Both the position numbers and the translations under genes were made by a program. A stretch of 36,896 nucleotides of DNA from a virus, in IMG/VR virus record IMGVR_UViG_3300023257_000063, positions 1 through 36,896 of that record. The stretch is one strand, 5' to 3'. Below, one piece after another: positions 4,611-36,457 of this stretch. Position 1 is the stretch's first letter; each line of letters begins with the position of its first letter. Under the pieces are notes generated by a model, which was not told where the DNA came from, did not search any database, and was given only the letters and a program-made list of their open reading frames with translations.

Positions 4611-7600
4611 ATGATCAAAAATATCGTTCATTTAGCTGATATTCATATTCGCCTATTACAAAGACATAAAGAATACAAAGAAGTGTTTGAGAAGCTATAT
4701 ACACAGCTAAAAGAAGATACAACGTTACATCCTGATGATTCAATTATATTACTAGCTGGAGATATATTACATTCCAAAACAGACTTGTCTCCAGAAGCTG
4801 TTAGTTTAGCTTCTGATCTTCTAGTTAACTTATGTAATATTCTACCAGTAGTGCTAATTGCAGGAAATCATGATGGAAACTTATCAAACAATTCTCGATT
4901 AGATGCTCTTACTCCAATTGTTAATGCTCTTAATTTAGATAATCTTTATTACTTTAAGGACACAGGAGTATATGACTTCAATGATAACATTCAATTTGGA
5001 TTAGCTAGTGTATTTGATAAGGTAATTCCTGATATTAAAACACTTGATAAGAATAAAGTTAAGATTGCATTATATCATGGAGTAGTTTCAGGTGCTAAGA
5101 CAGAAGCTAAGTATACTTTAACCGGTAGATTTAACGTTGAGTCTTTTAAAGGATATGATCTCGTATTGCTAGGTGATATTCATACTCCGCATCAATTTTT
5201 AAATAAAGAAAAGACAGTGGGCTATCCAGGATCATTAATAGCTCAAAACTATGGCGAAACAGAACTTAATAGAGGTTATTTTATTTGAAATCTTGAAACT
5301 CTAACAGCAAAAGAAATATATGTACCTAATGACTACGCATATCTAAACTTATATATAAATGACGGAGAACTAGAAACCTCAAAGCTTCCTAATCACTTTC
5401 CAAAAAGTTCTCGAGTTAGAATTCATATTAAAGATACGACTCATACTAAAGCAGGTCAGCTTATTGAAGAGCTAAGAGAAAAATATGGACTTTCAGAAGT
5501 AGTTTTAAATTGAAATAATATTTCGAATAGCAATACAGCAAATAAGCTAATTGATAATAATTTTTTAGAGAATATTAAATCAATAGATTATCAAAACTTA
5601 TTACTTAATCAATTCTTTGAAAAATTAAATGATGATCCGGATGTGGAACATATTAGTGAAGAAGATATCAAAGAAGTGTTAAAACTAAACGAAGAGGTTA
5701 ATACTGATGCATTAGAAATCTCCGTTAATAGTCAGTCGCATAATTGAAAACTAAAAAAATTAGAATTTAGTAATATGTTCTCTTATGGAGAAGATAACGT
5801 AATTGAGTTTTTTGACTTTAAAGATGTTATTGGTATATTTGGTAAAAATCATAGTGGGAAGTCAGCATTACTAGATATCTTATTATTTACTCTATTTGAT
5901 AAGAGTCATAGAGCAAACAAAGGTGCAGATATTCTTAACAATAAGAAAGAAACCTTTCATAGTAAAGTTAACTTTGAGATAAATGGAGTTGATTATTATA
6001 TTGAAAAGAAAGGCTCTAAGAGATCTGAGACTAATGATATTGTTAAAGTTGATATTGATTTTTGAAAGGAAGAAAGTGGTGTAATAGAATTACTTAATGA
6101 AGCTCAAAGAAAACAAACTGCTAAAAGGATAAGAGGTTTAATTGGTGAACTTGAAGATTTTGTATTAACATCTACTTCTCTTCAAAACTCTGGAGCTGGT
6201 TTCATTGATATGAAACAAAGTGAAAGAAAAGAATTTCTTTCTCAATTGCTAAAGATGGATATATATGAACAATTACATAGTTATACTGCAGATAAAGTTA
6301 AAGCAATTAAAGCAGAAATAAAAGTCTATAGCTATGAGAATGCTGAAGATAAGTTATATGAAGCAAACAATAATCTTAAAGAGTATACAGAAAAGTTACG
6401 TGATGAAGAAGAGGAACTTAAGAAATTTAAAACTGAATATGATGAATTTAATACAGAAGTTATTAAGCAAACAAAAAGTATAAAAGCAAATTCTGGCATA
6501 GAAAGTAATGTTGCTACAGAAATCGATAATTATAAAGAAAAAATAAAAGCCTACCATTCAACAGAAAATACTCAACATGATACAAAAAAAAGTTTAATGA
6601 ATTCTGTTATATCACTTGAAAAGGAAATTGTCGAAACAGAAGCTAAGATCGCTTTATTAGAAAAATTTTTGTCCGAAAACGAACATGATGTAGCACATAA
6701 GAAAACTACTGTTGAGCTTTTAATGGATAAGTATAATGTTTCAAGATTAGATGCAGAAGTATTTACTAAAAAATTAGACTTAAAACTTGAAAAGGTTAAG
6801 AAGTTAAAAGACTTAGAATATGATCCAAACTGTGGTTTTTGCATGAATAATATATTTGTAAAAGATGCAATAGAAACTAAGAATCAAATTGAAGAAGATA
6901 AAAAAACACTTAAGATTCTACAAAGCAAAGAATCTGATTATAAAGAAGAGCTACTAAGCATTAAAGAATATGCGAATGAAATAAATGAATATGAAGGTAA
7001 AAAAGAGAAGCTTAAGAAATTAGATAAACAATTAAGCCATCTTAAGATTAGTAGATATGCAGAAAAAGAGAAGCTCGAAATAAAAGAAACGTATATTAAC
7101 GGACTTGAGAAAATAGTCACAACATATAGTGAGAATCAGGAGAGTATTAATTGGAATATAATTGTTGAAAATAAGATATTAAATCTTAAAATAGATATTG
7201 ATAGAGTTAAAAAATTAATTAATATTTCTCAAAGTAATATAAAATCTTATAGTTCAAATATTTCTGTCTTTGAACATGATAAAAAGAGATATGAAGAGCA
7301 AATTATAAATGCTAATAAAATAAAAGAAGAATTAAAACTACTTCAATATTATAGTTTAGCAATTTCTAAAAATGGAATTCCTTATATGTTAATAACTCAA
7401 GTAATTCCTATACTAGAAGAAGAAGCTAATAATATCTTATCATTGATGACAGACTTTTCTATTGTATTTGAATTAGATGGAAAGAATATTAATTTAAAAA
7501 TTGCATATGCAACTGATTCATTTTGAGCAATTGAACTATCATCTGGATTTGAAAAGTTTATTTCATCATTAGCAATAAGAATAGCATTAACTAAAATATC

Positions 7601-7826
7601 TAATCTTGCTAAACCAAACTTCATTGCAATTGATGAAGGTTTTGGGAGCTTTGATACTGAAAATATATCAAACGTTGGCGTTATATTAGAGTACTTAAAG
7701 ACCCAATTTGACTTTATTATCATTATATCTCATTTAGATACGCTAAAAAGCTCGGTAGATTACTCCATAGAAATAGAGCAACATGATGGATTTAGTAAGA
7801 TTGATAATACAGGACTTAAAAAATAG
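4611..7826 (+). CDS. Mre11-Rad50 fusion (T4 gp47-gp46, SbcD-SbcC) recombination nuclease
   Basis: A single frame of 1071 residues with TGA=Trp at 5286, 5511, 5745, 6063 and 7524. Residues 1-385 are an Mre11/SbcD nuclease: aDIH (10-12), GDILHS (50-55), GNHD (85-88), then LLGDIHTPH. Residues 386-1071 are Rad50/SbcC: Walker A GKNHSGKS (411-418), long coiled coil, zinc hook CGFC (741-744), signature ELSSGFEK (975-982) and Walker B FIAIDEG (from 1004). In T4 these are two separate genes that form a complex processing DNA ends for recombination-dependent replication. Here no TAA or TAG and no new start separates them, so a fused polypeptide is expected unless it is cleaved. It probably shares a unit with primase. 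Confidence 0.9.
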
Positions 7827-16477: not shown

Positions 16478-16822
16478 ATGCTAAATAATATTATTAATAA
16501 TATTGAAAAATTAAATACAGCGCCTAAAGAAGTAATAATAAGAAATCATGAAAAACATGCAAGAACAAATGGAAGATATATAACATGAAGAAGAGCAGTT
16601 TATAAACGAGACAACTATACGTGTAAAGTATGTAGAAGAAGAAACGTTAGACTTAATGCACATCATATTAGAGGATTTAGTAGATTTAAAACATTAAGAT
16701 ATAAACTTGAAAATGGAATAACCTTATGTTCATCTTGTCATTGAAAGTTTCATAGGAAGTATGGGAAAAGTAATTTCCCAAGCATTAAAATCCTAATCAA
16801 CGAAGGAAAATTAGAATTATAA
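16478..16822 (+). CDS. Free-standing HNH homing endonuclease
   Basis: 114 residues. A classic HNH core: WRRAVYKRDNYTCKVC, then RLNAHHIRGFSRF, then GITLCSSCHWKFH, with two CxxC pairs for structural zinc and the HH/N/H catalytic elements. Trp in ITWRR and CHWKF are TGA codons, so the gene is adapted to this code. It lies between a fibre-like gene and an unknown 397-residue gene with only a few bases on each side. Probably a selfish endonuclease gene promoting spread of its own locus. Confidence 0.85.
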
Positions 16823-19060: not shown

Positions 19061-19324
19061 ATGAAAAAAAGTGAACTAAAAAAAATAATTAGAGAAGAAT
19101 TAGGTGCTGTGATAACTACAAAGCCTTTGAAGGAGGCTCCATTTGGACAAGAAAGGTTTAGAGACAATCCAAAGGTAAATATGGCACTAAATAAGATGGA
19201 TGGTGGATACTTAATGCTTAGAAAGCTATTTTCTGCTAGTGGAAGTAAAGAGGGTATAAAGATATTTAAAGCAATGTCAGATAAATATTTTGATGAGATA
19301 AGAGATCTTATTGATAACGAATAA
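19061..19324 (+). CDS. Small protein with MKKSELKKIIREE N-terminal tag
   Basis: 87 residues. Its tag-coding DNA (19061-19099) is almost identical to that of the gene at 21448 although the bodies are unrelated. The body begins LGAVITTKPLKEAPFGQERF, containing a second L-K-E followed by A, another site of prohead-protease type. It continues with a helical domain (VNMALNKMDGGYLMLRKLFSASGSKEGIKIFKAMSDKYFDEIRDLI). No known family. Candidate packaged protein by the tag argument. Confidence 0.7.
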   Translation: MKKSELKKIIREELGAVITTKPLKEAPFGQERFRDNPKVNMALNKMDGGYLMLRKLFSASGSKEGIKIFKAMSDKYFDEIRDLIDNE

Positions 19325-19979
19325 AAAAGGAATAAAGCATTCTCAAGAAAGAATAGAAAATATGAAAGCTTCTCTAAAAGGAAGAGTAGTATGAAATAAA
19401 GGAATTCCAAGAGCAGAAGAAACTAAAAGAAAAATTTCAGAAGCAAATAGAGGTAATGTGCCTTGAGATAAAGGCATAAAAAGAGAACCATTCTCAGAAG
19501 AAACTAAAAGAAAAATGAGCAACTCTCATAAAGGAAAAACGCTTTCAGAGGAAACTAAGAAAAAAATTAGCAAATCTAGATTAGAGTTCCATAGAAAAAA
19601 TCCAAATTTTGCAAAAAAGATAACATATGTAAGAACAGAAGAAATTAAAAAAAGAAGTAGAGTTGCTCGCATTGCAGAAATAAAAAGAAAAAAAGGAATA
19701 TGCATTCCGAACTACAATTCTAAAGCATGTATTTTATTTGAGCAGATAAATAAAGAAAATAATTGAAATCTACAACATGCAGAAAATGGTGGCGAATATC
19801 AAATTAAAGAACTCGGATATTTTGTTGACGCAATTGATTTTAAAAATAAAATAATTATTGAATATGATGAAAAGCATCATTTTAAAAACGGTAAATTAAA
19901 AAAGGAAGATATAGTTAGACAAAAAGAAATTGAAAAATTATATCCAAATTTTGAATTTATTAGAGTTAGAGGTAAGTAA
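19311..19979 (+). CDS. NUMOD3 homing endonuclease, complete copy
   Basis: 222 residues from TTG 19311 (overlapping the previous gene); ATG 19362 is the alternative. The N-terminal half is three to four NUMOD3 DNA-binding repeats (SEETKRKMSNSHKGKTLSEE, and similar). The C-terminal nuclease domain has LQHAENGGEYQIKELGYFVDAIDFKNKIIIEYDEKHHF, then DIVRQKEIEKLYPNFEFIRVRGK; the D...EYDEKxH arrangement recalls the Vsr-like/PD-(D/E)XK homing nucleases of T4-type phages. TGA=Trp occurs in several places. It resembles the truncated copy at 35861. A selfish gene inserted between a tagged gene and a nuclease gene. Confidence 0.8.
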
Positions 19980-22698: not shown

Positions 22699-23283
22699 AT
22701 GAACGAACAAATAGATTATAAAGAAATAATTAAACTTGAAAAGCGAAAGTGTGCAGAAGATCCTGTATACTTCATGAAGAATTACTGTCTTATCCAGCAT
22801 CCTCTTCGTGGAAAAATAAAGTTTGATTTATATGATTTTCAAGCAAAGACACTTACTGATTTACAAAAATTTGATTATAATATTATTCTTAAATCAAGGC
22901 AGTTAGGTATATCAACTTTAACTGCTGGCTATGCTTTATGGTTAATGATATTTCAAGAAGACAAAAATGTTCTTATAATTGCAATTAAGCAAGAGGTTGC
23001 AAAGAATATAGTAACTAAAGTTAAAGTTATGTATGATAACTTACCATCATGATTAAGAGTAAGGACAGTAGAAAATAATGTATTGAGCTTAAGATTTGTA
23101 AACGGCTCACAAATTAAAGCAATTGCTACATCGCCAGAAGCTGGACGTTCAGAAGCACTAAGTCTTTTAATTCTTGATGAGTGCTGTGATAGCTCTACAA
23201 AGATAAAGATTAGAAATAAAAAGACTGGTGTAGTAGAAAAAATAAATATTGAAAAGCTACATAGAAGTGATATTTATAAGTAA
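22699..23283 (+). CDS. Large terminase, N-terminal part fused to N-intein (T4 gp17-like)
   Basis: 194 residues with TGA=Trp at 23050. Residues 1-161 are the ATPase N-terminal part: the adenine and Walker region NIILKSRQLGISTLTAGYALW (an SRQLG motif like that of T4 gp17), the alternate-motif region NVLSLRFVNGSQIKAIA, and Walker B LLILDE ending at E161. Residues 162-194 are a 33-residue N-intein starting CCDSSTKI. TAA at 23281 ends the chain. The remaining terminase is encoded at 24368. Trans-splicing would join ...LLILDE to CAFLPH..., restoring the LDECAF sequence found in gp17-type terminases. Alone this fragment lacks motif III and the nuclease and cannot package DNA. Confidence 0.92.
23182..23280 (+). 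other. N-terminal half of split terminase intein (33 residues)
   Basis: Starts with the nucleophile Cys1 and block A CCDSSTKIKI (T at position 6 as usual), then a short strand (KTGVVEKINIEKLHRSDIYK). It ends well before where canonical split inteins (about 100 residues) break. This atypical short N-half resembles the AceL-TerL split intein class, known to me from the same terminase insertion type. The first of the two adjacent Cys is taken as Cys1 because splicing then restores DECAF. Confidence 0.88.
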
Positions 23284-23295
23284 GGAGTAAAAAAT

Positions 23296-24375
23296 ATGAA
23301 CTATAAAGATATCACTAAAATAATCTTCAAAAATAATAAACTAATACATTGAGCATGTAACAAAAATTGATATACTAAAAACAATACTGTAGACGTATAT
23401 GATGCAATACTTGAAGGAACAAGCTTTTTAAATAGCTATAATGTATCGTTTAGAGAAAGAATATTTTATATTCAAAATGACTGAGATAAAGCGCAGCTAT
23501 GTCCATTTTGTAAAAAAAATAAATTAAATTATTTATCTAATGAAGTGAGACTATCAAAAAAATGTAAGAGCAAGGAGTGTATTAGTCAATTTTCTTCTAT
23601 TAATGGAATAAAAGTCAATAATGCACTATCTGAAAGCGTTAAAATTAGAAAAATAGAAAAGTGTCGGCAAGCACAAAAAGCACATTGAGCAAACTATAGT
23701 GATGAGAAAAAACAAAAAATCATTGAAAAGATACGATTAAAAAACACAGGAAGAAAGCAAACTCAAAAAGAGATAGATAATAGAATTAAGTCTAGACAGA
23801 ATAATGGTAGACCGTGACACAGTGAGGAGACTAAGTTAAAAATATCAAAAAGCAATAGTATTACTCACTTAAGTAGCGCTTTTAAAGAAAAATATAAAGA
23901 CGTTTATAAAAATTCTCATAAAAAGATCTCTGCCACTATGAAAAGAAAAATAGCAAACGGTGAATTTACACCGTGTATAACTAATAGCTGAACTCATTGA
24001 GATAACGTTATTGTTCTAGAAAATAAAACAAAAAAAAATTTTAGAAGTAGTTGAGAAACTGTTTTTTGATTATTAAACAGAAATTTAAATTATGAAAATA
24101 TTCGTATTCCATATCAATATAACGGTGAGATGCATAGCTATATAGTTGATTTTGAAGATTCAAAAAATAGAGTACTGTATGAGGTTAAACCTAATAGCAA
24201 TATCGATAATGAGAAAAATAAATTAAAGTTTGTAGCTGCAAAGTCCTGATGTATAAAAAATAATTATCAGTTTCAATTAATAACTAATAATTGATTTAAA
24301 GACAACGCTTATAAAATTGACTATAGCTACTTTCAAAGTTTAAAAAGTCCTATGAAACAATTTTTAAATGATTAA
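23296..24375 (+). CDS. Homing endonuclease between the terminase intein halves
   Basis: 359 residues with its own AAGGAGT ribosome site and many TGA=Trp codons. Zinc finger C69/C72/C90/C95 (CPFC ... CKSKEC), then a NUMOD3-like segment (about 150-185, NGRPWHSEETKLKISKSNS), then a nuclease domain (about 245-330: FRSSWETVFWLLNRNL, HSYIVDFEDS, VLYEVKPNSN) with the E...D...ExK order of PD-(D/E)XK enzymes. Free-standing endonucleases between split-intein halves were described as 'fractured genes' (Dassa et al. 2009, from memory), with a Vsr-like nuclease family. It probably cuts intein-less terminase genes and so spreads the whole arrangement. It ends 8 bases inside the next gene. Confidence 0.85.
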
Positions 24376-24718
24376 AGATAAGCTAGGTGATATAGAATTT
24401 TCAATTAAAAACATCTCAGATTATGAAATTTGAAACGGCGAAGAGTGATGTGATTTTTCAGGCATCATGGAAAAAAATATTGAAGGTGTAGTTACATTAA
24501 AATTTAGCGATGATAGTAGCATACAAGGCTCTTTGAATCATAAAATACAAGTAAGTAGTGAGTTTAAATATATTAAAGATATTAATATTGGCGATATAAT
24601 AAACAAACTAACTGTTACTAATAAAACTATCAATACTAAATCTAAGAACAAACTATACGATATCTTAGGTGTTGAAAAAGGAAACAAATACTTAACAAAT
24701 AGTATTATCAGTCACAAC
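24368..24718 (+). other. C-terminal half of split terminase intein (117 residues)
   Basis: Begins with its own ATG (MIKDKLGDIEFSIKN). It contains the block B-like GSLNHKI (S55, H58), the DINIGDII strand, LYDILGV (block F-like) and ends NSIISHN with penultimate His and terminal Asn, followed by Cys+1. All residues needed for splicing are present. Total intein size with the N-half is 150 residues and there is no inserted nuclease domain; the nuclease is the separate gene upstream. Confidence 0.9.
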
Positions 24719-25843
24719 TGTGCATTCCTTCCCCATGTAGACGAAATTTGGACGTCAACACAACAAACGTTAGCTACCGGAGGAAGATGTATTGCACTAT
24801 CTACTCCTAATGGTGTTGGAAATTGATTTCATAAAACATGATCAGATGCTGAAGCTGGTATAAATAATTTTAATTTCATTAGACTTCCTTGAACTGTTCA
24901 TCCAGAAAGAGATCAGAAATGAAGAGATGCACAAACTGTTGCTCTTGGAGAAAAGATGGCTGCTCAGGAGTGTGATGCTGATTTTATATCTTCTGGTAAT
25001 ACAGTTATTGATATGAAAACATTGAAGATTATCGAAGATTATTTTGTAATAGATCCAATTGAAAAGCGCTATAGTGAAAGATTATGAATATGAGAATATC
25101 CAGATCCGAATAAAAGATATTTAGTTGCTGCAGATGTTGCTAGAGGTGATGGGTCAGATTATTCTGCATGTCATGTTTTAGACATTGCAACACTTGAGCA
25201 AGTAGCAGAATTTAAAGGTCTCATGGGAACCACCGATTATGGAAATTTACTAGTTAGTCTAGGTCATGAATATAATGGTGCCATGTTAGTAGTAGAGAAT
25301 GCTAGTATTGGTTGAGCAGTAATTCAAGTAATTATTGATAGAGAATATCCAAGCATTTATTATACAGCAAAGGATTTTAAGGTTGTTGATAAGACTAAAG
25401 ATTTTAAAGAAGCATATGAAATTGAAGGTAAGGGAAAAAAGAAATCTATAGTACCTGGCTTTACAACATCATCTAGAACAAGACCTTTGATAATAGAAAA
25501 GCTTACTAGAGTTTGTGAAGATAAGAATGAAGTTATCAGAATTCATTCAAAACGCTTAATTGATGAATTAACAGTTTTCGTATGAAAAACCTCAGGAAAA
25601 GCTGAAGCACGTAGTGGATATAATGATGATTTAGTTATGTCTTTTGCTATTGGATTATGAGTAAGAGACACAGCAATTAAACTTGTTGAAGAAGGAATAT
25701 CTGTAACTAAATATTCACTAAATGCAACCAATAAAACAGACATATTTTCAGGAACAAATACTGGTGGAGATACAAAAGATAATCCATGAATACAGCAGAC
25801 TGGCTATACTGGTGTGGAAATTGATTTGAAAGAATTTTTATAG
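24368..25843 (+). CDS. C-intein fused to large terminase C-terminal part (T4 gp17-like)
   Basis: 491 residues. Residues 1-117 are the C-intein; residues 118-491 (from Cys at 24719) are terminase: CAFLPHVDEIWTSTQQTLAT, motif III CIALSTPNGVGNW, then the RNase H-like nuclease with LVAADVARGDGSDYS, VVENASIGWAVI and RSGYNDDLVMSFAIGLW supplying the acidic metal ligands. Many Trp are TGA, for example in NGVGNWFHKTW. Spliced with the 161-residue N-part it gives 535 residues, a plausible size for the family. The start overlaps the endonuclease end. The protein powers and terminates DNA packaging at the portal encoded next. Confidence 0.92.
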
Positions 25844-25911: not shown

Positions 25912-28900
25912 ATGGCAGAAAAAGTGAGAGGTGATAAGGCTTTTGTACGAGGATTAAAGAGATTATTTTCTTCAGATGCAATAGTTAGACACGTTAATGA
26001 TGGTAAAGGTCTTAAAGTAATAGATACCGATGGAAAAAGATTCCAGCAGGCTTTAAAAAAGGATAATTACAAAAGATTTTATCAAAGATATTTAATTGAT
26101 CAAACTCAAGGTGGATTATTCCAGTTTCAAAGAAAGGAATTATTTAAAGATTATGAGGCTATGGAAAAAGATCCAATCTTGAATAGTGCTTTGGATATTT
26201 ATGCAGATGAATGTCTAGGTGGAGAAACTATAATTCCTTTGTTAGATGGTAGTAAAAAAACAATTAAAGAGTTACATGATGAGAATTATACTAATTTTTG
26301 AATTTATGGATTAGATTCTAATAAAAAAAGCTTTATACCAGTACAGTGTGAGCGAGTTGCAAATAATGGCTTAAAGCAAATGTACTTATTAACATTAGAC
26401 GATGGAACAAAAATTAAAGCAACTGATAAACATATTTGAGTTACAGCTGAAGGAAATCTAATTAAAACATCTGATTTGGAAATTGGAGAAAAACTTAAAG
26501 TATTGCCAACGAGAATTTCTAATACTAAAGGACCCTTAAATGGATATAAACAAATTAAAAATAATAATAAATTTGAATTTGTTCATAGAATAGTAGCAAG
26601 AAATAATGATGAATTAATACAACAAAGAGAAGCAATAGAACATAATAAATGTGCAGTTCATCATGCATCATTTAATAAATTAAATAATTCTCCGGAGCAT
26701 CTAACTTGATTAGAAAATGATGAGCACTTATTATTACATCATAATTTTAATCAACAACTATGAGCTAATCCTAAAGAAGCTGCACGAATGAAGAAAATAA
26801 TAAGCAGGAAAGTAAAAGAAAGCTGAAAGAATTTGTCAAAAGAAGAGTATGATAAAAGATGTCTTAGAAGATCAAAAACAATGAAAGATATTAGATCCTC
26901 TCTTACAAATGAAGAGCTGCGAAAAATATATAGTCATCCAGGAAGTGAAAATGGTATGTATAAAAACGGGCATAAAGTTGCAGGTGACAAAAACGGAAGG
27001 TGAATATCTGATAAAAATAGAATAGAAGATGTTGATATTAATCAATACATATCTGATGTTAAAAGCGGTATGAGATGTGAGGAGTTAGAAAAAAAATATA
27101 ATATTTTAACTGAAACATTACATAAGATTAATAAAATAATTAGAAATAAGTTTAATATTAACAGCCTACGATGCTGAAACCATATTAATATTGAAGACAA
27201 CCTAAAAAAGAGTAGTTTAACATTGCCTATTATTAGAAAAGAGATAAATAATTTAATTGCTAATAATAAAAATCCAAAAAGAAACTTAACTAAAATTGCA
27301 AATAGTCTATGTGTTACTGCTAAAGATATTAACTATTTAATTAATAAGAATGGTTATAGAACGTTTTCAGAGTTTGCCAATTCGAATAATCATCAATTAG
27401 TATCGATTGAAAGAGTTGATATTGAAGATGCATATGATTTAGTAAATGCAGGAAAAACTCATATTTATGCTATTGAAACAAATGATGGAGGAAAACTATA
27501 CACTCATAATTCCACTACAGAAAACGAGACTGGAGATCTTCTAGTCATCAAAAGTGATAATAACGACATTAAAGAAATATTAAATAATCTTTTCTATGAT
27601 ATTTTAAACATAGAGTTTAACCTTTGATCTTGAATAAGAAATATGTGTAAGTATGGAGACACCTTCTTACAATTAGATATACAAGATGAATATGGTGTAG
27701 TTAACGTTATACCAGTTTCTGTATATGATATTCAGAGAGTTGAAGGTGAAGATCCTCTCAATCCTAAAGATTATTATTTTACATTATTAGGTAATACTCG
27801 TGATAAATTAATGAATTTCCAAGTTGCTCATTTTAGAATGTTTACTGATTCAAATTATTTTCCATATGGACGAAGTATGATTGAAGGAGCTAGAAAACCT
27901 TGGAAGCAATTAAGTCTTATGGAAGACGCAATGATGGTTCATAGAATTATGAGAGCACCTGAAAAGAGAGTCTTCAAAATCGACATTGGTAATATACCTC
28001 CAAAAGATATTGATACATATATGAATGAAGTTATTAATAAGATGAAGAAGGCACCATATATCGATCCAACAACTGGTGAATATAATTTGAAATTTAATCT
28101 TCAAAATATGCTTGAAGATTTCTTTTTACCAGTTAGAGGCGGTGATACCGGAACCTCAATTGAAACTTTAAATGGAACTACATTTGATACAATTGATGAT
28201 ATTGAATATATTAGGAATAAGATGATGGCTGGATTAAAGATACCAAAAGCATTTTTAAACTATGAAGAAGATATTGAAGGTAAAGCAACTCTTGCAGCGA
28301 TGGACTTAAGATTTGCTCGTACAATTGAGAGAATACAAAAAATTACTATCTCGGAATTATATAAAATAGCTACTATTCATCTATACTGTCAGGGGTATAC
28401 AGATGATGCACTTGTTGACTTTGATTTAGAATTAACTAGCCCGTCACTTGTATATGAAGAAGAAAAGATTGAAATATGAGATAGAAGAGCTAGTTTAGTA
28501 GCATCTCTTAAAGATATTGATATGCTTTGTGAAGATTATATATATGAAAAAATATTAGGACTTTCAGAAGATGAAGTTAAAGAGAATCGCAAGAAACTCG
28601 TTATGGATAAGAAAAGAAAATATAGATTATATACAATTGAAAATGACGGAGAAGATCCTGTAAAAGAGGAAGTTGGAGATGAAGATGAATTTGGAGCTTA
28701 TCCAAGTCAACATCAAGATAATAATGACTCAAATGAGGATCAAGACAATGACAAGGATGAAAATAAAAATCCTGCTGACTATTTGAAAAAGAAAGATTCA
28801 ATAGCAGATGAGCTATTTAGTAAAGATGAAAGAATGGGACTTAATACAGCAGCGACTAGACATAAATATAAAGGAAATAGTCCACTTTCTTTAGAAAAAA

Positions 28901-28950
28901 TAGACTTATTCTTTATCAATAAGACAAATAATAAACAAATAATTTATTAA
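25912..28950 (+). CDS. Portal protein (T4 gp20-like) with in-frame intein
   Basis: 1012 residues in one frame with TGA=Trp throughout. Residues 1-100 and 534-1012 are portal; residues 101-533 are an intein. The N-extein ends KDPILNSALDIYADE and the C-extein begins STTENETGDLLVIKS, which together give the conserved gp20 segment. Later portal landmarks: WSWIRNMCKYGDTFLQLDI, FPYGRSMIEGARKPWKQLSLMEDAMMVHRI (a hallmark), KAPYIDPTTGEYNLKFN, DIEYIRNKMMAGLKIPKAFLNYEEDIEGKATLA, and an acidic tail (NNDSNEDQDNDKDENKN). The spliced product is 579 residues. The portal ring sits at the head vertex, docks terminase and starts prohead assembly. Upstream GGAAG site. Confidence 0.92.
26212..27510 (+). other. 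Cis-splicing intein with HNH endonuclease in the portal gene (433 residues)
   Basis: Block A CLGGETII with Cys1, TLDDGTKIKATDKHIW as block B (T71, H74), an HNH endonuclease region (about 110-185: GYKQIKNNNKFEFVHRIVAR, NKCAVHHASFNKLNNSPEHLTWL), then NUMOD-like and helix-turn-helix DNA-binding segments (NGMYKNGHKVAGDKNGRW; TKIANSLCVTAKDINYLI), and HIYAIETNDGGKLYTHN as blocks F/G with terminal His-Asn. The +1 residue is Ser. TGA=Trp occurs several times inside, so it is adapted to this code. HNH-type nucleases in inteins are less common than LAGLIDADG. Confidence 0.9.
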
Positions 28951-35860: not shown

Positions 35861-36457
35861 ATGTGAGTTAAAAATTGTCCTGAATGCGATTGTGTTCAAC
35901 ACTACAAGTATAGAGGAGATTTAACTACTGCTAAACGCTTAAATAGTAAGTGTAAATCATGCTCTTATAAGGGTAGAGTCTATTCAAAAGAGCATAACAG
36001 AAAAATAAGTGAATCACGCAAGGGAACAAAATGCTCTGAAGAAACAAAACGGAAACTCAGTAAAGCTAACAAAGGCAGAATATATTCAGAGGAGCATAAC
36101 AAAAAAATATCTCTTGCTAAAACAGGAAAAAAGAGAGCCCCATTTTCAGATGAATGTAGAAAAAGAATGTCTGAATCGCATGTAGGCTTAAAACATACAA
36201 ATAGCACTAAAAAGAAACAAAGATTAACCGCCATTAATAGAATTGAAGAACAAAAAGGTCAAATGATGCCTAACTATAATCCATCAGCTTGCTTAATTTT
36301 TGATCAATTAAATGAAAAAAATAATTGAAAACTACAACATGCAGAAAATGGTGGAGAATATAAAATTCCTGACTTGGGATATTTTGTTGATGCAATTGAC
36401 TTTAAAAATAAAATTATAATTGAATATGATGAAAAGTGAATTAAAGAAACTAATTAA
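35861..36457 (+). CDS. NUMOD3 homing endonuclease, C-terminally truncated
   Basis: 198 residues; codon 2 is TGA, so the start is Met-Trp. A zinc finger (NCPECDCVQHY ... KCKSC) is followed by NUMOD3 repeats (SEETKRKLSKANKGRIYSEE and others), then the nuclease domain up to GYFVDAIDFKNKIIIEYDEK. It then changes to WIKETN and stops, whereas the copy at 19311 continues HHF...DIVRQKEIEKLYPN to RVRGK. The lost part includes the HH after EYDEK and the C-terminal segment, so activity is doubtful. The 3' end overlaps the tagged gene at 36426 in another frame. Confidence 0.78.

Follow-up and report, generated by a model that had tools for sequence, protein, structure and literature searches.

A large terminase gene in two pieces, with a predicted atypically split intein and an intervening endonuclease gene at the Walker B motif

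Fractured genes, reportedly described by Dassa et al. in 2009 (NAR 37:2560), are enzyme genes that a split intein divides into two halves, between which a free-standing endonuclease is encoded. Atypically split inteins of the large terminase (TerL) combine a short N-terminal fragment (IntN) with a long C-terminal one (IntC), the two measuring 25 and 104 residues in AceL-TerL, 37 and 115 in GOS-TerL, and 30 and 104 in Cat, a consensus built from AceL- and GOS-TerL (PMC11766414). An intein in the TerL Walker B motif, TerL1-e, occurs in mycobacteriophages, and a general preference of inteins for ATPases is established (PMC5050341). Inteins in the TerL of T4-like phages, and one in PhoH, have moreover been reported for Campylobacter phage vB_CcoM-IBB_35 and Salmonella phage Mooltan; the endonucleases named in the excerpts of those articles consulted here are of the HNH/MobE or GIY-YIG type, and the excerpts do not describe the Walker B pattern reported below (PMC3322345, PMC6486243). 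Here we analyse a locus of the viral contig IMGVR_UViG_3300023257_000063 (positions 1-36,896; this whole stretch of 36,896 nucleotides is called the window, and all coordinates refer to it unless another locus is named), in which TerL is encoded in two pieces. The arrangement itself is of a known kind, a further atypically split TerL intein in a fractured gene. We are highly confident that the locus is a homing element, made up of such an intein and a free-standing endonuclease and inserted between the Walker B glutamate and the cysteine that follows it.

Gene layout and the exactness of the break

When UGA is read as tryptophan, the locus resolves into three almost gapless genes on the plus strand: TerL-N (22699-23283), an endonuclease gene (23296-24375) and TerL-C (24368-25843). 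The first begins with the N-extein (residues 1-161; 22699-23181), a gp17-like ATPase portion that contains the Walker A motif KSRQLGIST, ends with the Walker B motif LLILDE, matches PF03237 as well as phrog_5989 and phrog_2, and is about 59-74% identical to its viral-contig relatives. Directly after LLILDE come the 33 residues CCDSSTKIKIRNKKTGVVEKINIEKLHRSDIYK, the predicted IntN with its Cys1 (23182-23283), and then TAA, just as a preliminary description of this DNA had stated. That description placed the break exactly at the Walker B glutamate; it actually lies after this residue, leaving both Walker motifs and the glutamate itself on the N-half. The stop codon overlaps an AAGGAG (23282-23287) that looks, from its letters alone, like a Shine-Dalgarno element, eight bases 5' of the endonuclease ATG, and the endonuclease stop in turn overlaps the start codon of TerL-C (ATGATTAA). 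This last gene opens, again as first described, with a 117-residue IntC ending in SHN (24368-24718), followed by the C-extein (residues 162-535; 24719-25843), which starts at the +1 cysteine of CAFLPHVDEIW and includes the coupling-motif region LSTPNG and the nuclease domain; its best match in a tblastn search of 2362 phage records is the TerL of Microcystis phage Mel-JY01 (52.8%). The two terL genes are 1084 bp apart, in agreement with the 1.1 kb given before, an account that had nevertheless overlooked the open endonuclease gene at 23296-24375, and the whole insert amounts to 1537 bp.

The position of the break was examined in 84 TerL loci (80 viral contigs and four phage records), 83 of which could be scored, the eightieth contig being cut before the N-half. 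In all 83 (79 viral-contig and four phage-record relatives) the gene is uninterrupted, with a gap of exactly zero between the counterparts of E161 and C162, and the joined 535-residue protein aligns in a single stretch in 84 loci. An artefact of assembly or sequencing could have split what is really a contiguous intein-containing gene, a possibility that draws some support from a viral contig (L102) with a contiguous mini-intein of 137 residues at the same site. However, a second contig, IMGVR_UViG_3300025669_000120, has the same frames and the same break at 99.93% DNA identity over 12-13 kb, which makes a local assembly error unlikely, although the two samples may be related; independent relatives, sequenced isolates among them, likewise have an IntN of 32-43 residues that ends in a stop and is followed by a separate gene. 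The second contig and these relatives together rule out an assembly artefact, and an artefact of either kind is hardly credible.

An RNA intron carrying an endonuclease gene and spliced out of the transcript would also account for an interrupted terL, and terL introns of this nature exist in phage ICP1 (PMC10448857). The ends of the present insert, by contrast, encode conserved in-frame intein fragments, and Rfam returned no group I or group II intron either in the window at gathering thresholds or in positions 22950-24950 at a relaxed E value; on that negative result we reject an RNA intron, an explanation with next to no likelihood.

The recoding of UGA, also proposed at the outset, is borne out by the relatives, which have tryptophan opposite the 11 TGA codons of the TerL exteins in 833 of 914 aligned cells (mostly Phe or Tyr in the remainder); a reading of UGA as stop is thereby excluded. 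Among the TerL relatives a single in-frame TGA was encountered, which shows that the group as a whole does not share the recoding. The endonuclease gene has 11 TGA codons and no TGG, and its codon use therefore matches that of the window genome. Neither the window nor the second contig, both of which are fragments, yielded any tRNA gene, and hence no phage-borne suppressor tRNA.

The split intein, its predicted splicing and its counterparts

Sequence and predicted fold place the intein among the atypically split TerL inteins AceL, GOS and Cat. IntC alone matches the C-fragment of Cat (CatC, PDB 6dsl) with an E value of 0.0017, and a profile of IntC does so with an E value of 4e-26; the AlphaFold2 model of IntC (pLDDT 90) has 6dsl chain B as its first-ranking Foldseek match (TM 0.79, rmsd 1.8 Å), in keeping with the kinship to AceL-TerL that had been suggested. 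The 33-residue IntN gave no match when searched alone with phmmer, and its profile matches CatN (6dsl_A) weakly (E 0.016); its assignment draws in addition on an alignment with 13 allelic IntN fragments. A length of 33 residues is ordinary for the group, given the published 25, 30 and 37. The window intein thus shares with AceL-TerL, GOS-TerL and Cat the TerL host, the short IntN, the long IntC, the Cys+1 and a homologous IntC fold, while differing from them in its fragment lengths (33 and 117 residues), in its UGA-recoded phage, and in that its neighbouring genes can be seen, as can the endonuclease that resides in it.

The residues expected for splicing are all present, namely Cys1, the block-B His58, His116 and Asn117 of IntC, and Cys+1, and they are conserved in 13-15 allelic inteins, which were aligned from viral contigs L098-L104, L106, L137, L138 and L144 and from phages HY03, phiR1-RT and phiS. 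In IntN, C1, T6 and T15 are invariant (C1 across 14 fragments); in IntC, H58 and N117 are invariant and H116 nearly so. With the gapless extein junction, these residues uphold the original proposal of a split intein in TerL.

Trans-splicing by the canonical Cys1/Cys+1/Asn route is very probably the best explanation of these features. The two TerL-intein fusions would be made as separate polypeptides from one operon, as suggested by the endonuclease start right behind AAGGAG and by the overlap of the TerL-C start with the endonuclease stop. The 117-residue IntC would form almost the whole Hint fold and receive the docking 33-residue IntN, Cys1 and Cys+1 would carry out the acyl shifts, and Asn117 of IntC would cyclise, leaving E161 joined to C162. 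The product would be a terminase of 535 residues whose ATPase core is intact and which contains the junction peptide ...LLILDECAFLPHVDEIW... Packaging would then depend on splicing. The unspliced halves are likely to be inactive, since the N-half breaks off midway through the ATPase core and it is the other half that carries the coupling and nuclease regions; the earlier argument for this, from loss of ATP hydrolysis, used a wrong detail, as the glutamate stays on the N-half.

Alternatively, the terminase could work as two separate polypeptides that associate unspliced, in the manner of enzymes whose genes were broken by endonuclease insertion, and NrdA genes in pieces of this origin are known (work cited in PMC3322345). 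Such a pair would not require the residue-perfect extein found at the junction, nor does it fit well with the retention, on both halves, of complete intein fragments and splice residues across 13-15 divergent alleles; we consider it improbable. The intein might instead be a decayed relic in a phage that is defective or complemented. Two observations weigh against an active intein here and leave room for decayed activity: the branch leading to the window intein is long (2.49 changes per site), and the intein is just 23-36% identical to its alleles; splicing, moreover, is a prediction from sequence. TerL is essential in tailed phages, however, and the open frames, the full set of splice residues and an extein that is both intact and conserved make a relic very unlikely. 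Trans-splicing of a functional split intein accordingly remains the reading we adopt.

Cultured relatives of the locus, which the preliminary description had overlooked, carry close counterparts at the same site (written DE/C, with the slash marking the insertion point). The same three-gene anatomy is found in Escherichia phage HY03 (L092), in Yersinia phage phiR1-RT (L091) and in contigs L100, L101, L137, L138 and L144. In the two cultured T4-like phages, as in the window, TerL-N with IntN, an endonuclease and IntC with TerL-C are encoded in that order by overlapping genes; the phages differ in using the standard code, in having an IntN of 41 and an IntC of 107 residues, and in an intein about 30% identical to that of the window. 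Fractured terL genes occur in the cultured T4-like phages HY03, pSe_SNUABM_01, SG1, JEP6, PD112, BYEP01, CE1, SP21535 and phiR1-RT; the annotations label the locus as two terminase genes with an endonuclease or a hypothetical protein, and those of the records consulted name no intein. Intermediate forms also occur at DE/C. Besides the contiguous mini-intein, there are split inteins that lack any endonuclease (L099, L106), one that houses an endonuclease of another kind (L104), and an endonuclease fused behind IntN (phage phiS, L088, and TB34). In L104, the slot within the TerL split intein is filled by a 460-residue endonuclease-like gene (L104:612-1990) with repeated 'ERYGV..P.Q' motifs.

On the TerL tree the split alleles need five state changes, but a topology that unites the six non-T4 split rows in one clade is not rejected (p-AU 0.36). 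Repeated independent acquisition of the DE/C split intein by non-T4 TerLs is hence unsupported, and this tree does not distinguish vertical loss from horizontal gain. Atypically split C-inteins of similar length also occur at other TerL sites, before CLIIDE, CDEFAF and CLFADE and, in the P-loop, before CGKS (L105, L109, L111, L113-L129, L131, L133); in L102, the P-loop holds an intein C-part in addition to the contiguous intein at DE/C.

The resident endonuclease and the Walker B motifs of other ATPases

The gene between the halves (23296-24375) encodes a free-standing endonuclease of 359 residues with a TnsA-like PD-(D/E)xK domain at its C-end. It matches PF08722 (TnsA-like; 30.1 bits against a cut-off of 26.5, E 7e-7) and phrog_15427, 'endonuclease' (E 8.5e-30). 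R250, S251, W253, D285, F286, E296, K298 and P299 are invariant in an alignment of 25 rows, from which D285, E296 and K298 can be read as the pattern of a PD-(D/E)xK site. The structural model has a pLDDT of 82 overall and 95-98 across most of the catalytic part; its top Foldseek match, TnsA (1t0f), is weak (E 0.04, probability 1.00), which speaks against the assignment. Vsr-like EDxHD enzymes use the catalytic set E-D-x-H-D, and an endonuclease of that type is ruled out by the same 25-row alignment, in which the catalytic part has no invariant histidine and an ExK pair instead. In these two respects the family differs from the Vsr-like EDxHD enzyme I-Bth0305I (3r3p), likewise a phage homing endonuclease and one whose nuclease fold is distantly related (Foldseek rank 6). 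The locus resembles the fractured genes of Dassa et al. in having a conserved enzyme gene, a split intein and an endonuclease gene inside, whereas the endonuclease family named there is reportedly Vsr-like EDxHD, and that of the window is TnsA-like, of the form E..D..ExK. To judge from its family and position, the endonuclease would cut the intein-free terL of co-infecting phages at the joined site, and repair would copy the whole element. A search of 84,980 prokaryote genomes with one narrow pattern confirmed no relatives of the endonuclease.

The surroundings of this family were surveyed in 68 endonuclease loci, which reduce to 44 distinct ones at 90% identity. A locus was scored when an intein N-start with Cys1 lay directly after D/E-E at most 1.4 kb upstream, with 1600 random positions in other viral loci as the control. 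By this measure 35 of the 44 distinct genes lie in a split intein directly behind the Walker B Asp-Glu of unrelated ATPases, against 2 of the 1600 random positions. Among the remaining nine, two are cut at the contig end and have downstream halves that start with CH right behind the break (L186, L187), one is a PhoH with DE/C recognised by eye (L164; compare L093), one is a TerL whose break lies five residues later (L175), one is ambiguous (L145), and four are distant or unflanked relatives. By profile, the interrupted genes encode TerL, a UvsW-type DEAD helicase (PF00270/PF00271, phrog_16/9690), a second helicase (phrog_2488), a clamp loader (phrog_168) and PhoH (PF02562). The inteins are split after 32-43 residues in TerL and after about 95-125 in the other genes. 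The endonuclease tree implies at least four switches of target gene and places the TerL carriers in at least two groups with well supported branches between them; the family thus tends to stay with one gene yet has moved between genes. In Proteus phage PM2 (L096:2691-6348), uvsW is in three pieces, with a split intein and an endonuclease of the same family at DE/CH and another homing endonuclease towards the end.

It is possible, and we propose it only tentatively, that one TnsA-like homing endonuclease family has specialised on the DNA of the Walker B Asp-Glu-Cys and jumps with split inteins between unrelated phage ATPases, the inteins having two break points (at about 33 residues in TerL and about 100 in the others). 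The codons themselves tell against this proposal, as third positions at D-E-C vary freely across hosts (GAT 24 and GAC 15; GAG 20 and GAA 19; the Cys codon varies too), so that an enzyme reading the site must tolerate variation or read further out. One shared DNA target accordingly stays a hypothesis. A link of one endonuclease family to DE/C in several ATPases was not found in the literature searched, and may already be published.

Neighbouring homing genes and the setting of the split terminase

The window has other intervening elements. The gp20-like portal gene (25912-28950) contains a contiguous 433-residue intein (26212-27510) with an HNH_3 match, inserted at YADE/S, a site that is uninterrupted and ungapped in 76 of the 76 relatives spanning it; like the TerL intein, it sits after an Asp-Glu pair. 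Three further free-standing endonuclease-like genes (16478-16822, 19311-19979 and 35861-36457; one HNH, and two NUMOD3 with very similar C-ends) point to a genome rich in homing genes. The second contig carries, past the end of the window, a free-standing Vsr-like gene that has a C2H2 zinc finger (L198:2859-3728; EIDGDYWH...RD), lies beside a tail-sheath-like gene and probably encodes an EDxHD homing endonuclease. Elsewhere in the window, a single protein of 1071 residues (4611-7826) unites an SbcD-like phosphoesterase with an SbcC-like ATPase, the counterparts of which in T4, gp47 and gp46, are separate proteins.

The rare TerL inteins with a short IntN, which serve as protein-labelling tools, are now placed in a genomic setting, as part of a mobile element that has its own endonuclease and ranges from contiguous to split forms. 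The close counterparts in cultured coliphages make splicing, the dependence of packaging on it, and homing directly testable. One endonuclease family, one catalytic motif and several unrelated ATPases would together explain, in concrete and testable terms, how split inteins pass from gene to gene and, if this explanation is true, the DEC triplet would be both the target site and the source of the +1 nucleophile.
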